Assembly (NCBI GenBank): GCA_018401465.1
Contig: JAGYKE010000004.1
Location: forward strand, 1,891,857-1,955,856
DNA from: Aestuariivita sp.
GTDB taxonomy: Bacteria; Pseudomonadota; Alphaproteobacteria; Rhodobacterales; Rhodobacteraceae
Direction: 5' to 3'
DNA length: 64,000 nt
This document shows, one piece after another, positions 4,997-61,766 of the stretch; within the stretch, counting starts at the first letter, position 1, and every line of letters begins with the position of its first letter. Made by a program: the position numbers and the translations under genes. Below the pieces are notes generated by a model. That model ran no database searches. It saw only the letters and a program-made list of their open reading frames with translations, and was not told the DNA's origin.

Positions 4997-5950
4997 TCAA
5001 AGTCCCTGCGCCAGATGCTGTTCCACGACTTCGGCGATGCCCTCGTCGCCCGTCAGGCCAAGTTTCGTCGCGCGGGTGGTGTCGAAACGTGACGGCCAGC
5101 TTGCCACGATGGCCTCGATCGCCGGGTCCGGGGTGTGCTTGACCAAATCGACGGCGGTCGCGCCACAACGGCGGCCAAGTTCGGCCAGCATCTCGCGCGG
5201 GGTCACGGTGATGCCGGGCAGGTTCACCGGCACGCCATCGGACAGCGCCGCGGGCGGCAGCGCGGCCAGCGCCGCGATATTGCGGATGACAGCATCGGGT
5301 GAGCTGATCCACAGCGGCAGGTCCGGATCCACCGGGCAATCGGCGGGCAGGCCCGCGATCGGCTCTCGCAAGATCGAACTGGCAAAGGAGGAGGCAGCCG
5401 CATTCGGTTTGCCCGGGCGGATCACGACCGTGGGCAAGCGCCCGGTGACACCGCGCACATAGCCTTTACGGCTGTAATCGGCGACCAGCATCTCGCCGAT
5501 GGCCTTTTGTGTGCCATAGCTTGATTGCGGGCGCAGCACCTGCGCGTCGGTCACGATTGCGGGGCAATCGCGCCCAAAGACGGCAAGCGAAGAAGAAAAG
5601 AAGAAGAAAGGTGCCGCACCACTGGCCCGACACGCGTCAAGCAACGCGCGGGTACCGTCGAGGTTCACCGCCATCCCGATGTCGAAATCACGCTCGGCTT
5701 GGCCAGACACCACGGCGGCGAGGTGGAAGACAGCACCCGTTTGCGCTGTGATCGTGCGCGCCAGCAGCGCAGGGTCGGTGACGCTGCCGATCTCGGAGAC
5801 AACCTTGGGCGAGCTGATCGGGCAGGGCGCCAAATCCACCGAGATGATGCGCGTGAAGCTCAGGCCGCCTGTCTGCCCTTGTGAACTCAGAAGCGCGCCG
5901 ATCAGCCGCGCGCCAAGAAATCCAGCGCCACCTGTGACGACAATATCCAT
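4997..5950 (-). CDS. denD: D-erythronate dehydrogenase (extended SDR family)
   Basis: A 317-aa NAD-dependent epimerase/dehydratase-fold enzyme. The Rossmann motif GGAGFLG is at residues 7-13, and the catalytic pair is in SSYGTQK (Tyr and Lys in YxxxK spacing). Sequence and neighbourhood fit DenD, which oxidises D-erythronate to 2-oxo-tetronate in the DUF1537-kinase pathways. The product would be isomerised by OtnI, phosphorylated by OtnK and decarboxylated by OtnC, all encoded on the other arm of this cluster. It is the last leftward gene, 129 bp after oiaX, so it probably shares the oiaK promoter. The exact substrate is inferred from context. Confidence 0.8.
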   Translation of the reverse strand: MDIVVTGGAGFLGARLIGALLSSQGQTGGLSFTRIISVDLAPCPISSPKVVSEIGSVTDPALLARTITAQTGAVFHLAAVVSGQAERDFDIGMAVNLDGTRALLDACRASGAAPFFFFSSSLAVFGRDCPAIVTDAQVLRPQSSYGTQKAIGEMLVADYSRKGYVRGVTGRLPTVVIRPGKPNAAASSFASSILREPIAGLPADCPVDPDLPLWISSPDAVIRNIAALAALPPAALSDGVPVNLPGITVTPREMLAELGRRCGATAVDLVKHTPDPAIEAIVASWPSRFDTTRATKLGLTGDEGIAEVVEQHLAQGL

Positions 5951-6079
5951 CGCTTACTCCTATGCGGTCGGGGCCGCTGGGTGATCTTGACCCATGGCGT
6001 CGGGCCGAAACAGGTTGTTGTCCATGAGGCGCGCGGGCGCAAGCCTTGCCAAGCGATTGATGCCGCCCCCGCTTTTTGT

Positions 6080-7375
6080 TCAGCGCAGCAATGCTGCGGG
6101 GTCGACCTTTGCAGGCGAAAAATGTGCAATCGCGCGGGAGAGTTCCGGCGCGTCGGCGGCCTTCTCGCTCAACGAGACCCCATCGCGCGCGGCTTCGGCC
6201 GCTTGTCGCATGGCCCGCACACCCGCCCCGACGCCATCGGGATGGCTCAACAGCCCGCCGCCCGCGCAGAAGATGAAATCATCATTGCCCAACAGCGTCC
6301 GTGTCGGCCCGACCTGCCAGACGGTTTGGCCCGAGGAAAACACAGGCATGGCCGTCATCGGGGGCGCGTCACCCACGCAGACCGGCGCCTGGACTGCGCG
6401 CGCGGATCGGGTGACTGATACATCGGGTTCGCTGAACTTGCTGGCCAAACCATTCACGTGAAGATGATCCGCCCCCGCCAATCGCCATAGCTTTTGCATC
6501 ACGGTGTAATCGATCCCGATATCAGGCGAGCGCGACAACAGCCCCCATCCAGCGCGGTGACCATGGATCGGCATGGTCGTATGGTTGCGGACCACACGCA
6601 GTGCCGGCAGGCCGATGGTCTTGAGGCAGACCATGGCGCAGCCTGCCTTATGGTCTTCCAACAGATCGAGGCTGCGCCGCATCTCGTCGATCTCGCCCGT
6701 GATGTTGCAGGCGTAAAGGACGCGCTTGCCGGTCCGCTCGGCGTGGTCGTTCAACACCGCCATCACCTGTGCCACGCGTTCCGACAAGGGGCAGTCGGGG
6801 CCATTGGCCTGCAGTTCGTCATCCTTGATGAAATCGATCCCGGCATCGGCAAGCTGTCGGACCAGATCGGCTGTCTCGAAGGGGGAAAGGCCGACGCTGG
6901 GCTTGATGATGGTGCCGATCACGGGGCCATCATGCCCGCCCATTGCCGCGCGTGTGCCGGGCGCGCCGAATTTCGGGCCGGGATGGGCATGGGCGAATTC
7001 GGCCGGCAGCGTCAGATCGACCAAGCGCACCGCCGACATTTCGGCCAGCTCAAACAGATTTCCTGCAATGGTGGCCATGAGCGTGGGCAAAGACGTTCCA
7101 AAGTTGCCGATCGGCCAACTGATCGTGACAAGGCCACGTTCATAGACCGGGCCGCTGTCGCGCGATGAGAGCGCGGGCTTGTCCGATGTTCCGGTGATCT
7201 CGATGGCTTCGATCCGCGCGGCGGAGCGCTCGCGCAGGGCGTCCGTCTCGCTGGCCAGACGCACGAATGTGCCCGTGGATTGTTCACCAGCCAGCACGGC
7301 GGCAGCATGGGCCACACCCTTGTGCGATTGGATATCATAGATCGCCGTGACACGGGGGGTGGTCGTCGGGCTCAT
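6080..7375 (-). CDS. oiaX: RuBisCO-like protein, predicted 3-oxo-isoapionate-4-phosphate decarboxylase
   Basis: A 431-aa RuBisCO large-chain homologue, slightly shorter than true RbcL. It keeps the active-site Lys in GTIIKPSVGL (K158) and the metal-site block GIDFIKDDE, where K184 (carbamylated in RuBisCO), D186 and E187 bind Mg. It also has a HGHRAGWG block, a Lys in the loop-6 region (ASKFSEPD) and the phosphate-binding C-terminal GGGLLSHPDGVGAG. Next to a DUF1537 kinase and an ApnO homologue it fits OiaX, which decarboxylates 3-oxo-isoapionate 4-phosphate to L-erythrulose 1-phosphate. The transcarboxylase/hydrolase subgroup (XiaX) is an alternative that sequence reading alone cannot exclude. 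It overlaps oiaK by 4 bp. Confidence 0.8.
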   Translation of the reverse strand: MSPTTTPRVTAIYDIQSHKGVAHAAAVLAGEQSTGTFVRLASETDALRERSAARIEAIEITGTSDKPALSSRDSGPVYERGLVTISWPIGNFGTSLPTLMATIAGNLFELAEMSAVRLVDLTLPAEFAHAHPGPKFGAPGTRAAMGGHDGPVIGTIIKPSVGLSPFETADLVRQLADAGIDFIKDDELQANGPDCPLSERVAQVMAVLNDHAERTGKRVLYACNITGEIDEMRRSLDLLEDHKAGCAMVCLKTIGLPALRVVRNHTTMPIHGHRAGWGLLSRSPDIGIDYTVMQKLWRLAGADHLHVNGLASKFSEPDVSVTRSARAVQAPVCVGDAPPMTAMPVFSSGQTVWQVGPTRTLLGNDDFIFCAGGGLLSHPDGVGAGVRAMRQAAEAARDGVSLSEKAADAPELSRAIAHFSPAKVDPAALLR

Positions 7376-58395: not shown

Positions 58396-59499
58396 TCACT
58401 TGCTGGTCGGGGCGGCGGCGGTCGGTTCGGGATAGCCGAGCACGATGTCGCCCCGCGCCTCGAGCCTGCGGGTTGCATCGATGACGGCGATAAGCGCCTC
58501 TTCCCCTTCGGTATCGGAGGGTGGCGCGCGTTCGGCAATTTCTTCGCGCAGGGCATCGGACAGCCGTGCGGAGATGCCAGACAGCAAGAATTCGGCCGTG
58601 CCAGCATAGTCCGCGTGGCGCTGTGCGAATGCAAGCGCGGTGACCGTCACGCCCTGATCCACGTCGCGCAGGATGCGCGCGACATCGCGCACCGATACGC
58701 GTTCCGGGATATGCGCGAAGGTGAACAATGCCCTGCGCACTGCGGTCGCGAAATCGGCATCCTGCTGGTCGAGCCCTTCGAGAAGATCGTCCCGCGTGGC
58801 CGAGGGCGAGCGGTTGAGGATTTCGCCGACCCGGTCGGATGGCGTGGCGGCGAAGGCACGCGGCGCGCGCGTGTCAAGCCGCGTGGCCAACGACAGGCCA
58901 ATCCGGTCGACCGCGTCGGGCGTAACCGAACCGGTCAGGGACACCGCGTAGGTGATGCGCCGCGCCAGCGACCCCGGCAACCGGCCCAGCAGCGCCGCCG
59001 CCTTCGCTGTGTCGAGCTTGGCCAGCATCACCGCCGCAACCTCGGTGCTTTCGGTTTCCGCGATCGAGACGAGATCGGGCAGGTCGGCCCGCCGCAGCCG
59101 GTCCCAGGGATCTCCCGCGGCACGCACCCCGTTTTCGCGGCGCAGGCGCGCCGCGGTCGGCGCGCTGATCTTGCCGTCGAGCATGGTCAGGGCCCCCGCC
59201 ATGCCGCGCGGGAAGGACAGGCCCACAGCGTCGAGTTCGTCGGCAAATTCGGTGACCACCTGCGTCAGCGTCTCGCGGTCGATCAGGCCCATGCGCCCCA
59301 TTTGTGCGGTCAGTGCCGCCTGCAGCTCCTCGGGGAGGTCCTCGATCGGGATGTCGGCGCCTGCGGTAAGCAGAAGCCGCACGATCACCGCGGCCTTGGC
59401 GCGGCGGCCCAGCGTCGGGCGCGGCGCAGCCTGTATCGCCTGACCCGCCTGACCGCGCGGGATGGCAGGAAGAGAAGGTCCGTTGGCGGCTCGGCTCAT
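58396..59499 (-). CDS. fliG: FliG-like flagellar motor switch protein
   Basis: 367 aa aligning along the whole length with FliG. The N-terminal domain is GRRAKAAVIVRLLLTAGAD to LTQVVTEFADEL. The middle domain has AAVMLAKLDTAKAAALLGRL with SLARRITYAVSL. The C-terminal domain has FTFAHIPERVSVRDVARILR. FliG transmits torque from MotA to the rotor. No other flagellar gene is in the window, and the sequence is divergent: the usual EHPQ-type segment reads TESTE. I chose the ATG at 59499, MSRAANGPSLP. Confidence 0.82.
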   Translation of the reverse strand: MSRAANGPSLPAIPRGQAGQAIQAAPRPTLGRRAKAAVIVRLLLTAGADIPIEDLPEELQAALTAQMGRMGLIDRETLTQVVTEFADELDAVGLSFPRGMAGALTMLDGKISAPTAARLRRENGVRAAGDPWDRLRRADLPDLVSIAETESTEVAAVMLAKLDTAKAAALLGRLPGSLARRITYAVSLTGSVTPDAVDRIGLSLATRLDTRAPRAFAATPSDRVGEILNRSPSATRDDLLEGLDQQDADFATAVRRALFTFAHIPERVSVRDVARILRDVDQGVTVTALAFAQRHADYAGTAEFLLSGISARLSDALREEIAERAPPSDTEGEEALIAVIDATRRLEARGDIVLGYPEPTAAAPTSK

Positions 59500-59567
59500 G
59501 GTCTGCACCCTAGACGACGTTGCGCGTTGCGCGTCATCTAAGAGTGCAGAGGTGAAGAAACCGTCAA

Positions 59568-60104
59568 TCAGTAATCCGAGGTCTGCCCCGTCGCGATCGC
59601 CTGTACCAAGGCCGTTTCGGGCCACGTCCCCGCACCGCCCCGGGCGCGGATCTCGCGCAACTGCCCGCGCGCGTCGGTCATGCGTCCGGCCTCGACATGG
59701 GCAAGGCCCAAATAGGACCGTGCCAGCAGGTTGTCCGGGTTCCGGACCAGTGCGCGGTCGTAATAGTCAAGCGCCAGATCCATCCGGCCCAGCCGCCGGT
59801 GGGTGAAGCCCCAATAGGTCAGGACGAAGTCGTCGGCCTGATCGGGCATCGCGCTCAGCACGCCCTGCGCATCGGCGTTCCGGCCCGCATAAGCCAGTTC
59901 GCGCACGGCCTCCTTCAGGATCTGCGGGTCAAGCTGTGATTTCTGCGGATCGACACAGGTCTTGGTCTTTTTGTCCCAGACCTGCACGCCCTTGCATTCC
60001 TGCGTGGTCGGGGTGGGCACGGGTGCCGTGGGTTCTTCGGTTTCGGTTCCGACAGCCAGCGCTAGCGAAGGGGCCAGGGCGACCAAAAGGGCTGCGATGC
60101 GCAT
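59568..60104 (-). CDS. Secreted TPR protein with a CxGxxVWDxxTxTCV motif
   Basis: 178 aa. Signal peptide MRIAALLVALAPSLALA, then a short Thr/Pro spacer, then the motif ECKGVQVWDKKTKTCVDP (about 36-53), then TPR-like helices (YWGFTHRRLGRMDLALDYYD and SYLGLAHVEAGRMTDARGQL). Periplasmic; function unknown. I chose the ATG at 60104, where the signal begins. The same Cys motif occurs in the 51-aa protein encoded just upstream. Confidence 0.82.
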   Translation of the reverse strand: MRIAALLVALAPSLALAVGTETEEPTAPVPTPTTQECKGVQVWDKKTKTCVDPQKSQLDPQILKEAVRELAYAGRNADAQGVLSAMPDQADDFVLTYWGFTHRRLGRMDLALDYYDRALVRNPDNLLARSYLGLAHVEAGRMTDARGQLREIRARGGAGTWPETALVQAIATGQTSDY

Positions 60105-60157
60105 GCCTGTGCTCCGTCCTTTGGATGTTTCGGTGCAACCTAGGGCCGCAATGTAAC

Positions 60158-60182
60158 AAGGCGACCCCTTCGGGATCGCCTT
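60158..60182 (-). terminator. Leftward terminator after the 51-aa secreted peptide gene
   Basis: On the minus strand AAGGCGATCCC pairs with GGGGTCGCCTT (one wobble) around GAA and is followed by GTTAC. The stem is strong but the T run is weak. It separates the small gene from the TPR gene. Confidence 0.6.
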
Positions 60183-60216
60183 GACCGATGTGCGAGGTCG
60201 TCTTGGGATCTGCGCG

Positions 60217-60372
60217 TCAGCTGGAAATCTGAGCGACGCAGGTCTGCGACTGGGCATCCCAGACCGTGCCTTCGGTGCAGGACATCGCCTGATGGCTCTT
60301 GTCCGAGCACATGGCGAAGGCCGACAGGGGTGCGGCAGCAAGGGTTGCGGCCACCAGAAGGGTCTTCATCAT
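60217..60372 (-). CDS. Small secreted cysteine-containing peptide (51 aa)
   Basis: It starts MMKTLLVAATLAAAPLSAFA, a clear signal peptide, leaving a mature peptide of about 31 residues with three Cys. The mature part contains SCTEGTVWDAQSQTCV, nearly the same motif as in the neighbouring TPR protein. GGAGG stands 9-13 bases before the first ATG. A possible promoter (TTGAGT, 16 bp, TAACCT on the minus strand) lies upstream. Function unknown. Confidence 0.75.
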   Translation of the reverse strand: MMKTLLVAATLAAAPLSAFAMCSDKSHQAMSCTEGTVWDAQSQTCVAQISS

Positions 60373-60461: not shown

Positions 60462-61766
60462 TCAGCTGCCGAAGACACGGGCAAAGATCGTGTCGACATG
60501 CTTTGTGTGATAGCCGAGGTCGAACTTCTCCTCGATCTCGGCGGGGCTGAGGGCGGCGGTCACGTCGGGGTCGGCCAGCAGCTCTTCCCGGAAATCCTTC
60601 CCCTGTTCCCAGACCTTCATGGCGTTGCGCTGGACAAGCGTATAGGCGTCCTCGCGGCTGACGCCGGCCTGCGTCAGGGCCAGAAGCACGCGCTGGCTCA
60701 TCACGAGACCGCGGAACTTGTTCATGTTGGCGAGCATGTTGTCGGGGTAGACCACCAGCTTGTCGATCACAGTCGTCAGGCGCGCCAGTGCGAAGTCGAG
60801 CGTCACGGTCGCGTCGGGGCCGATGTTACGTTCCACCGACGAATGCGAAATGTCGCGTTCGTGCCAGAGCGCCACGTTTTCGAGCGCGGGGATCACCATG
60901 CCCCGCACCAGCCGTGCGAGGCCCGTGAGGTTTTCGGTCAGGACCGGATTGCGCTTGTGGGGCATCGCCGACGAGCCCTTCTGACCCTTGGAGAAGAATT
61001 CCTCGGCCTCGAGCACTTCGGTGCGCTGCATGTGGCGGATTTCGGTGGCGATGTTCTCGACCGAACTGGCGACGACGCCCAGCGTAGCGAAGAAGGCCGC
61101 GTGGCGGTCGCGGGGGATCACCTGGGTGCTGATCGGTTCCGGTGTCAGGCTCAGCATCTTGCAGACATGCTCTTCCACCCGCGGGTCGATATTGGCGAAG
61201 GTGCCGACGGCACCCGAAAGCGCGCCGGTGGCGATCTCGGCGCGTGCGGTCTTGAGGCGCGCAAGGTTGCGGTCCATCTCGGCGTAGAAGCGGGCGAAGG
61301 TCAGGCCCATGGTCGTCGGTTCGGCATGGATGCCGTGGCTGCGCCCGATGCGCAGCGTCATGCGGTGTTCCATCGCGCGCCGCTTCAGCGCGGCAAGCAG
61401 CCCTTCGACATCGGCGATCAGGATGTCTGCGGCCCGCGTCAGCTGGATGTTGAAACAGGTGTCGAGAACGTCGGACGATGTCATCCCCTGATGGACGAAG
61501 CGCGCCTCGTCCGCGCCCACGATCTCGGCCAGATGCGTCAGGAAGGCGATGACGTCATGCTTGGTCACGGCTTCGATCTCGTCGATGCGGGCGACGTCGA
61601 AGTCCACGTCGCGGGCCTTCCAGACGGCTTCGGCGTTCGCCTTCGGGATGACGCCCAGATCGGCCATCGCGTCGCAGGCATGGGCCTCGATCTCGAACCA
61701 GATGCGGAACTTGGTTTCGGGGCTCCAGATCGCGACCATGTCGGGGCGGGAATAGCGGGGGATCAT
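60462..61766 (-). CDS. purB: Adenylosuccinate lyase
   Basis: A 434-aa fumarase/aspartase superfamily enzyme acting twice in purine synthesis. It starts MIPRYSRPDMVAIWSPE. His residues are in GRSHGIHAEPTTMG near 143, and the signature loop is KGSSAMPHKRNP near 262, which carries the catalytic Ser. HDVIAFLTHLAE and HQGMTSSDVLDTCFN are also typical. Single gene with its own leader. Confidence 0.97.
   Translation of the reverse strand: MIPRYSRPDMVAIWSPETKFRIWFEIEAHACDAMADLGVIPKANAEAVWKARDVDFDVARIDEIEAVTKHDVIAFLTHLAEIVGADEARFVHQGMTSSDVLDTCFNIQLTRAADILIADVEGLLAALKRRAMEHRMTLRIGRSHGIHAEPTTMGLTFARFYAEMDRNLARLKTARAEIATGALSGAVGTFANIDPRVEEHVCKMLSLTPEPISTQVIPRDRHAAFFATLGVVASSVENIATEIRHMQRTEVLEAEEFFSKGQKGSSAMPHKRNPVLTENLTGLARLVRGMVIPALENVALWHERDISHSSVERNIGPDATVTLDFALARLTTVIDKLVVYPDNMLANMNKFRGLVMSQRVLLALTQAGVSREDAYTLVQRNAMKVWEQGKDFREELLADPDVTAALSPAEIEEKFDLGYHTKHVDTIFARVFGS

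Follow-up and report, generated by a model that had tools for sequence, protein, structure and literature searches.

The peritrophin-A domain (Pfam CBM_14, PF01607) is a chitin-binding domain of animals defined by six cysteines in three disulfide bonds, and work on tachycitin is said to have identified the half of the domain with cysteines 4 and 5 (C4-C5) as the chitin-contacting, hevein-like part. The available portions of two papers that treat tachycitin (PMC2920538, PMC4993390) do not state a hevein likeness of this hairpin. Exported TPR proteins, recognised by Pfam models such as TPR_16 and TPR_2 among others, form helical repeats, and secreted proteins may be encoded together with ECF sigma factors. 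Genes co-transcribed with ECF sigmas often encode their regulators, and the example SMc01418 of S. meliloti, upstream of rpoE1 (ECF26), is described as a lipoprotein-15 repeat protein, as far as the accessible text of that source goes (PMC3511301).

In this study, we compare with these systems a locus of Aestuariivita sp., located in a stretch of 64,000 nucleotides (hereafter the window), in which two adjacent genes encode exported proteins that share one small hairpin. Judged by its sequence, the hairpin corresponds to the one between Cys 4 and Cys 5 in peritrophin-A (CBM14), and it is present once in a short free peptide and once at the N-terminus of a TPR protein.

Results

Organization of the locus

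The gene order in the window is purB (adenylosuccinate lyase, 60462..61766), a gene for a 51-aa exported peptide (60217..60372), a gene for a 178-aa exported TPR protein (59568..60104, with its ATG at 60104 and its stop at 59568) and fliG (flagellar motor switch protein, identified by Pfam, 58396..59625), all on the minus strand, purB and fliG being the conserved upstream and downstream neighbours. The listed fliG frame overlaps the TPR gene, thus the true fliG start is probably further in, and the longer frame of the TPR gene, up to 60341, is a mere frame extension. While fliG lies near purB, the other typed neighbours in the window are non-flagellar (EamA transporter, DUF6314, BioY). A GGAG-type stretch, read from the sequence, precedes the ATG of both the peptide gene and the TPR gene, and scans around the two genes detected no Rfam family, sigma-70 promoter or terminator.

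The free peptide consists of a signal peptide followed by three cysteines (22, 32 and 45), the last two of which delimit a C32-x12-C45 hairpin containing WD (60232..60282, minus strand; residues 31-47, SCTEGTVWDAQSQTCVA; core match C3:1952094-1952135). The TPR protein runs from its signal peptide through a Pro/Thr-rich linker to a C37-x12-C50 hairpin with WD (59952..59999, minus strand; residues 36-51, ECKGVQVWDKKTKTCV; core match C3:1951811-1951852), and then to the TPR helices and a C-terminal helix; both signal peptides were read by eye. Several TPR cut-offs of Pfam were passed by the TPR protein (TPR_16 with 35.2 bits, above 32.7, and also TPR_2, TPR_1, TPR_14 and TPR_19). No NCBIfam model reached its cut-off for either window protein, the best one for the TPR protein being PRK11447 with 19 bits against a cut-off of 858. 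Like exported TPR proteins, it has a helical repeat and a model that matches TPR folds, but it differs from them by the hairpin with a Cys pair at its N-terminus and by staying below the NCBIfam cut-offs.

AlphaFold2, run with three sequences, modelled the TPR protein with a mean pLDDT of 86; residues 31-60, next to the first TPR helix, were at 91-95, and the predicted hairpin strands (42-44 and 49-51) fall in blocks of this pLDDT. The peptide model is of low confidence (pLDDT 61), with its hairpin (36-39/44-47) at about 80. In structure searches, the matches listed for the TPR model were TPR-type folds, with Z up to 15.6, and several of the structural alignments start at residue 26-32 and so include the hairpin inside the helical repeat. 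Foldseek with the low-confidence peptide model returned only generic hairpins, the best at E 3.0, and no chitin-binding protein or fold was found among the matches listed for the peptide and TPR models.

Conservation of the shared hairpin

The initial annotation had reported one motif in both adjacent exported proteins, and this was confirmed, as C-x5-W-D-x5-C stands behind the signal peptide in each (CTEGTVWDAQSQTC in the peptide, CKGVQVWDKKTKTC in the TPR protein). In the notation used there, the C...WD...C frame is indeed common to both, while the C-x-G part was slightly off since the Gly lies one residue apart, at C+2 in the window's TPR protein (CKGVQVWD) and at C+3 in the window's peptide (CTEGTVWD). 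As DNA, C-x5-W-D-x5-C occurs four times in the 3.74-Mb genome, against two occurrences in a reversed control, and two of the four are these genes, 241 bases apart.

The loop between the two cysteines is 12 residues long in all 111 free peptides and in 111 of the 115 TPR proteins. Among those with this loop, the aromatic residue (W, Y or F) is kept in 108/111 peptides and 107/111 TPR proteins, with Leu in its place in 3/111 free peptides; Asp is kept in 107/111 and 104/111, respectively, and Gly at C+3 in 110/111 peptides versus 83/111 TPR proteins. The mature free peptide has three cysteines in 110/111 cases and the mature TPR protein two in 113/115. The four exceptions to the loop length among the TPR frames are L242, L249 and L250, with a longer loop, and L247, which lacks the first Cys.

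The N-termini of L242, L249 and L250 are elongated and resemble two hairpins in tandem (WDPEIKKYV ... VWDADIKKCV in L242), in which the inner two cysteines have been lost and the outer two retained. A local expansion of the module is seen in L171 (genome G100, 5514-6231), where purB and the TPR gene are separated by three consecutive genes for small exported hairpin proteins, of which one has just two cysteines. In the free peptides, a His lies between the first and second Cys in 77/109, and Met occurs within the four residues preceding Cys 2 in 58/109; with the His, this make-up could bind metal.

Absence of the motif from homologues of either protein, named in the initial annotation as the finding that would speak against it, was looked for and did not occur, and the profile search proposed there also came out in favour of the motif. 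A hairpin-only profile built from the free peptides matched 53/115 TPR frames and 106/111 peptide frames at E<0.01, with zero matches in other frames among 18,403. With a mature-only profile, 73/115 TPR frames were matched, and hhalign of the peptide profile against the TPR-protein profile gave 97.6% and E 4e-12, signal-peptide columns included. The window's own TPR hairpin scores weakly, with 12.0 bits (E 0.14) against the hairpin-only profile and 12.5 bits (E 0.087) against the longer mature-peptide profile, thus for this genome taken by itself the case is carried by the motif together with its relatives. Chance resemblance was rejected on the genome-wide motif count, the conservation in homologues and the clean profile background, and a likeness stemming from signal peptides alone was rejected for the group since the hairpin-only and mature-only profiles still match. 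The profile comparison supports the original suggestion of a single mini-domain, whose two cysteines are conserved and which exists both as a free peptide and in fusion with TPRs.

Relationship to the CBM14 domain

While the initial annotation could not match the module to a named family, the hairpin partly matches Pfam CBM_14, the free peptide scoring 29.4 bits, above the gathering cut-off of 22.1, and the TPR protein 13.7 bits, below it. The match of the peptide covers positions 16-47 of the 53 in the profile, short of a full-length domain, and its cysteines are those which we take to be Cys 3, 4 and 5 in CBM_14 numbering, with Cys 1, 2 and 6 missing. At E<=0.1, CBM_14 matched 24/24 peptide homologues tested (P0002 and 23 hand-picked peptides) and, weakly, 10/15 TPR homologues (15 of 20 frames, L037, L041, L042, L043 and L046 being omitted), against 0/10 shuffled peptide controls, five of them with Cys in place. 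CBM_14 matches at E<=0.001 occur in 40/295 family genomes, and of 30 of these loci 28 show the short form and L002 the full six-Cys domain, with none shown for L012. The L002 frame, from another Rhodobacteraceae genome (G039, 1213-1650), is 146 aa long and its six-Cys, full CBM14-type domain scores 52 bits, the highest of the CBM_14 matches in these genomes.

The hairpin resembles CBM_14 in how Cys 3, 4 and 5 follow one another and are spaced, and in the Gly, aromatic residue and Asp of the C4-C5 loop, but it lacks Cys 1, 2 and 6 as well as the beginning of the domain, with three cysteines in the peptides and two in the TPR proteins instead of six, and the hairpin proteins are bacterial. Since only half of the domain and three of its six cysteines are present, we refer to a CBM14-like hairpin or half domain and not to a full member, and for the same reason chitin binding cannot be assumed. 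Against the PDB, the peptide profile matched over its Cys region 8in3 (25 kDa polyphenol-binding protein, E 2.9e-5) and 7bwe (chitin binding beak protein 3, E 0.013). The very best PDB rows of this profile were WD-repeat proteins, which were judged to be chance 'VWD..T..C' repeats.

Distribution and gene order in Rhodobacteraceae

In a sample of 295 Rhodobacteraceae genomes, some of them incomplete, the TPR family was found in 122 at E<=1e-10 and its strong kind in 114, weak TPR matches lacking the N-terminus being excluded from the genome count. The peptide profile matched 207 genomes at E<=0.01, TPR N-termini included, and 163 at best E<=1e-9. Both genes are present in 86 genomes, the TPR gene only in 28, the peptide only in 77 and neither in 104. 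Five of the 28 TPR-only genomes, which have no peptide at E<=1e-9, carry a weaker peptide-like match (G100, G108, G120, G283 and G294). The odds ratio of 4.1 (p 2.5e-8, not corrected for kinship), together with the numbers of genomes with one gene alone, indicates association but no dependence of the peptide and the TPR gene. The partnership of the two proteins proposed in the initial annotation was not shown, with 28/114 TPR genomes and 77/163 peptide genomes having one alone.

Regions were fetched around 115 TPR genes, some of them ending at short contigs, and around the peptides of 25 of the 77 TPR-less genomes. The peptide is present on the same strand in 81/115 TPR regions, with no strand flip recorded, and the median gap between peptide match and TPR match is 112 bases (66 pairs). 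The order of the window, purB-peptide-TPR-fliG, is found in 54 of the 115 TPR regions, alongside purB-TPR-peptide-fliG (13), purB-TPR-fliG (10), purB-peptide-TPR (5), purB-peptide-peptide-TPR-fliG (4), purB-TPR (4), peptide-TPR-fliG (3), TPR-fliG (2), TPR-peptide (1), TPR-peptide-fliG (1) and TPR alone (18). The position of the peptide upstream or downstream of the TPR gene changed at least four times on the purB tree, and peptide-only regions have purB in 21/25 and fliG in 23/25. Hairpin identity between a peptide and its own TPR neighbour is 43.2% versus 42.3% with those of other genomes (77 regions, permutation p 0.11), which gives no sign that the peptide gene and the TPR gene arose by a recent duplication or have undergone gene conversion. 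Five lone TPR loci (L166, L201, L219, L257 and L259), away from purB, fliG and ECF genes, have neighbours in common.

Plasmid homologues and ECF loci

Among the matches listed in 285 other genomes of the class, the N-terminal hairpin of the TPR protein was covered only in G333 and G380, and the free peptide was absent, the three non-family matches being parts of frames with 457, 781 and 5413 residues. The plasmid records that were matched came from Pantoea, Rhizobium, Shinella, Klebsiella, Microvirga and others, whereas the free peptide gave no tblastn match on plasmids at E 0.01. Eight plasmid loci were examined, from 54 and 52 matched records (45 Pantoea, one of these read), and the hairpin is present in all eight. 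In seven of them, with the free peptide absent, ECF sigma and anti-sigma matches lie downstream of the hairpin-TPR gene, the ECF matches of L322 and L324 being partial and the anti-sigma label being mainly record annotation, with family scores below cut-off; Pfam sigma-70 domains were checked for L317 and L319. This cassette of hairpin-TPR protein, ECF sigma and anti-sigma (L317-L320 and L322-L324) occurs in Alpha- and Gammaproteobacteria. In L324 (2923-3402), on a plasmid of Pseudomonas silvicola, the TPR gene is split in two frames, with the hairpin apart from the repeats. The same ECF/anti-sigma neighbours stand beside the TPR gene of the class genome G333, which is not independent since its TPR row and that of plasmid locus L323 are the same.

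Among the 18 lone TPR loci of Rhodobacteraceae away from purB and fliG, four have an ECF sigma beside them, three of these an anti-sigma too, and ECF/anti-sigma matches were found in 0/97 TPR regions having purB, fliG or the peptide nearby. At the window locus the TPR gene does not lie beside such a pair, and an uncontrolled search with the anti-sigma of L212 gave no match in the window's genome. The plasmid homologues, directly upstream of ECF sigma and anti-sigma genes, are like the secreted proteins encoded with ECF sigmas, such as SMc01418, but an ECF gene is missing next to the window copy. That SMc01418 is the counterpart of the TPR protein in S. meliloti was rejected on its lipoprotein-15 identity, as given in the accessible part of PMC3511301.

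In the TPR tree, built by a quick method with a midpoint root, with many weak forks and with L307, L308 and L324 left out, the 97 purB/fliG/peptide-linked TPRs and 8 rows from elsewhere form one 105-row group (SH-aLRT 83), and 11/11 ECF-linked rows lie outside it. This grouping, the plasmid hairpin-TPR genes beside an ECF pair without a free peptide, and the finding of the free peptide only in Rhodobacteraceae suggest that the hairpin-TPR fusion probably predates the free peptide, an order that depends on the rooting given the midpoint root and the weak forks.

Discussion

The explanation that we prefer, tentative but quite possibly correct, is that the hairpin is a minimal envelope-facing binding module, perhaps for GlcNAc glycans, which occurs both mounted on a TPR scaffold and as a free peptide. 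Both proteins would be exported to the envelope with the same module, a 14-residue beta-hairpin closed by one bond predicted for the Cys pair, in which the positions of Gly, an aromatic residue and Asp hardly vary, and this hairpin may bind a GlcNAc-containing envelope polymer, either peptidoglycan or a surface glycan. Such a polymer is favoured because it joins the CBM14 likeness, the kept aromatic residue and the export signals. In the TPR protein, the hairpin might fix or position a scaffold of TPRs to which other proteins are recruited, and the TPR part may have a regulatory role in the ECF cassettes. In the free peptide the hairpin would act alone, and its further cysteine, probably unpaired, and the His located ahead of Cys 2 point tentatively to dimers, mixed disulfides or metal. 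The hairpin-TPR protein, probably the earlier of the two, would have been tied to an ECF sigma/anti-sigma pair, and in Rhodobacteraceae its gene would have come to sit between purB and fliG alongside the free peptide, which is perhaps a partial duplicate of the N-terminus of the TPR gene.

The confidently modelled residues next to the first TPR helix, and the structural alignments that take the hairpin into the helical repeat, would also suit a hairpin with the structural role of capping the TPR solenoid at its N-terminus and with no ligand of its own, the peptide having kept the fold for an unrelated use. We consider such a cap unlikely, although worth serious attention, since the same residues are conserved in the free peptide, which has no solenoid, and some homologues (L318) have an extra linker between the hairpin and the TPRs. 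Rather more doubtful is that the free peptide serves the TPR protein as a dedicated partner, be it ligand, inhibitor or chaperone. Their same-strand neighbourhood in most TPR regions and their association across genomes fit a partnership, but either gene is often found without the other, peptide-only regions mostly keep purB and fliG, and own peptide/TPR pairs show no co-variation.

A hairpin-TPR protein acting in the periplasm as a regulator of the ECF sigma/anti-sigma pair, in envelope or thiol stress sensing, with the Rhodobacteraceae copies acting on a distant or lost pair, would account for the neighbours at 7/8 plasmid loci and for the ECF sigma at four Rhodobacteraceae loci, and it agrees with the regulatory role that co-transcribed genes often have, in the accessible text of PMC3511301. 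To this role we assign a small but appreciable likelihood, as the purB/fliG/peptide-linked TPR regions lack ECF and anti-sigma matches throughout, the L212 anti-sigma went without a match in the window's genome in the uncontrolled search, the anti-sigma label itself comes mainly from record annotation, and SMc01418 is described in the same partial source as a different, lipoprotein-15 protein. That the peptide and the TPR protein are flagellar accessory proteins is suggested by the adjoining fliG, present in 87/115 TPR regions, and by the greater frequency of the peptide in FliG-bearing genomes (153/249 vs 10/46; for the TPR gene 102/249 vs 12/46, p 0.07), and is nevertheless highly improbable. 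Scored by FliG match alone (E<=1e-10), neither gene is confined to flagellar genomes, as the same 10/46 and 12/46 without a match still keep them; three FliG-less loci (L198, L246 and L251) have both genes beside purB, and flagellar neighbours are not annotated at plasmid loci L317, L319 and L320. Since the two genes can persist beside purB in genomes without a FliG match, the neighbourhood of fliG looks positional. MotK of Cereibacter, which in the available text of PMC10954123 is a large protein of the periplasm that serves motility and contains a TPR-like region, was rejected as a candidate for the TPR protein.

If the hairpin is a binding module for GlcNAc glycans, a further step, which we think improbable, would be that the glycan-reading hairpin on the TPR protein signals the condition of a GlcNAc polymer, either peptidoglycan or capsule, to the ECF anti-sigma in the ancestral cassette, and that in Rhodobacteraceae the three-Cys peptide, copied from the N-terminal hairpin of the TPR protein, serves as a decoy or as a modulator linked through thiols. 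Were this true, half a peritrophin domain would be tied to bacterial envelope signalling.

Among the titles and passages listed in a literature search, none described the peptide/TPR pair. The two proteins represent genuine, conserved families that no NCBIfam model fits, and we regard the pair as a variation on known parts rather than a system of a new type. Of the 295 Rhodobacteraceae genomes, at least 163 carry the free peptide and 114 the hairpin-TPR protein, usually at the same chromosomal site. The ECF-linked plasmid cassettes, many of them from plant-associated bacteria, offer a direct route to reporter tests of function. If the hairpin does bind GlcNAc polymers, it would be a very small module of this type and would show which half of the peritrophin domain suffices.
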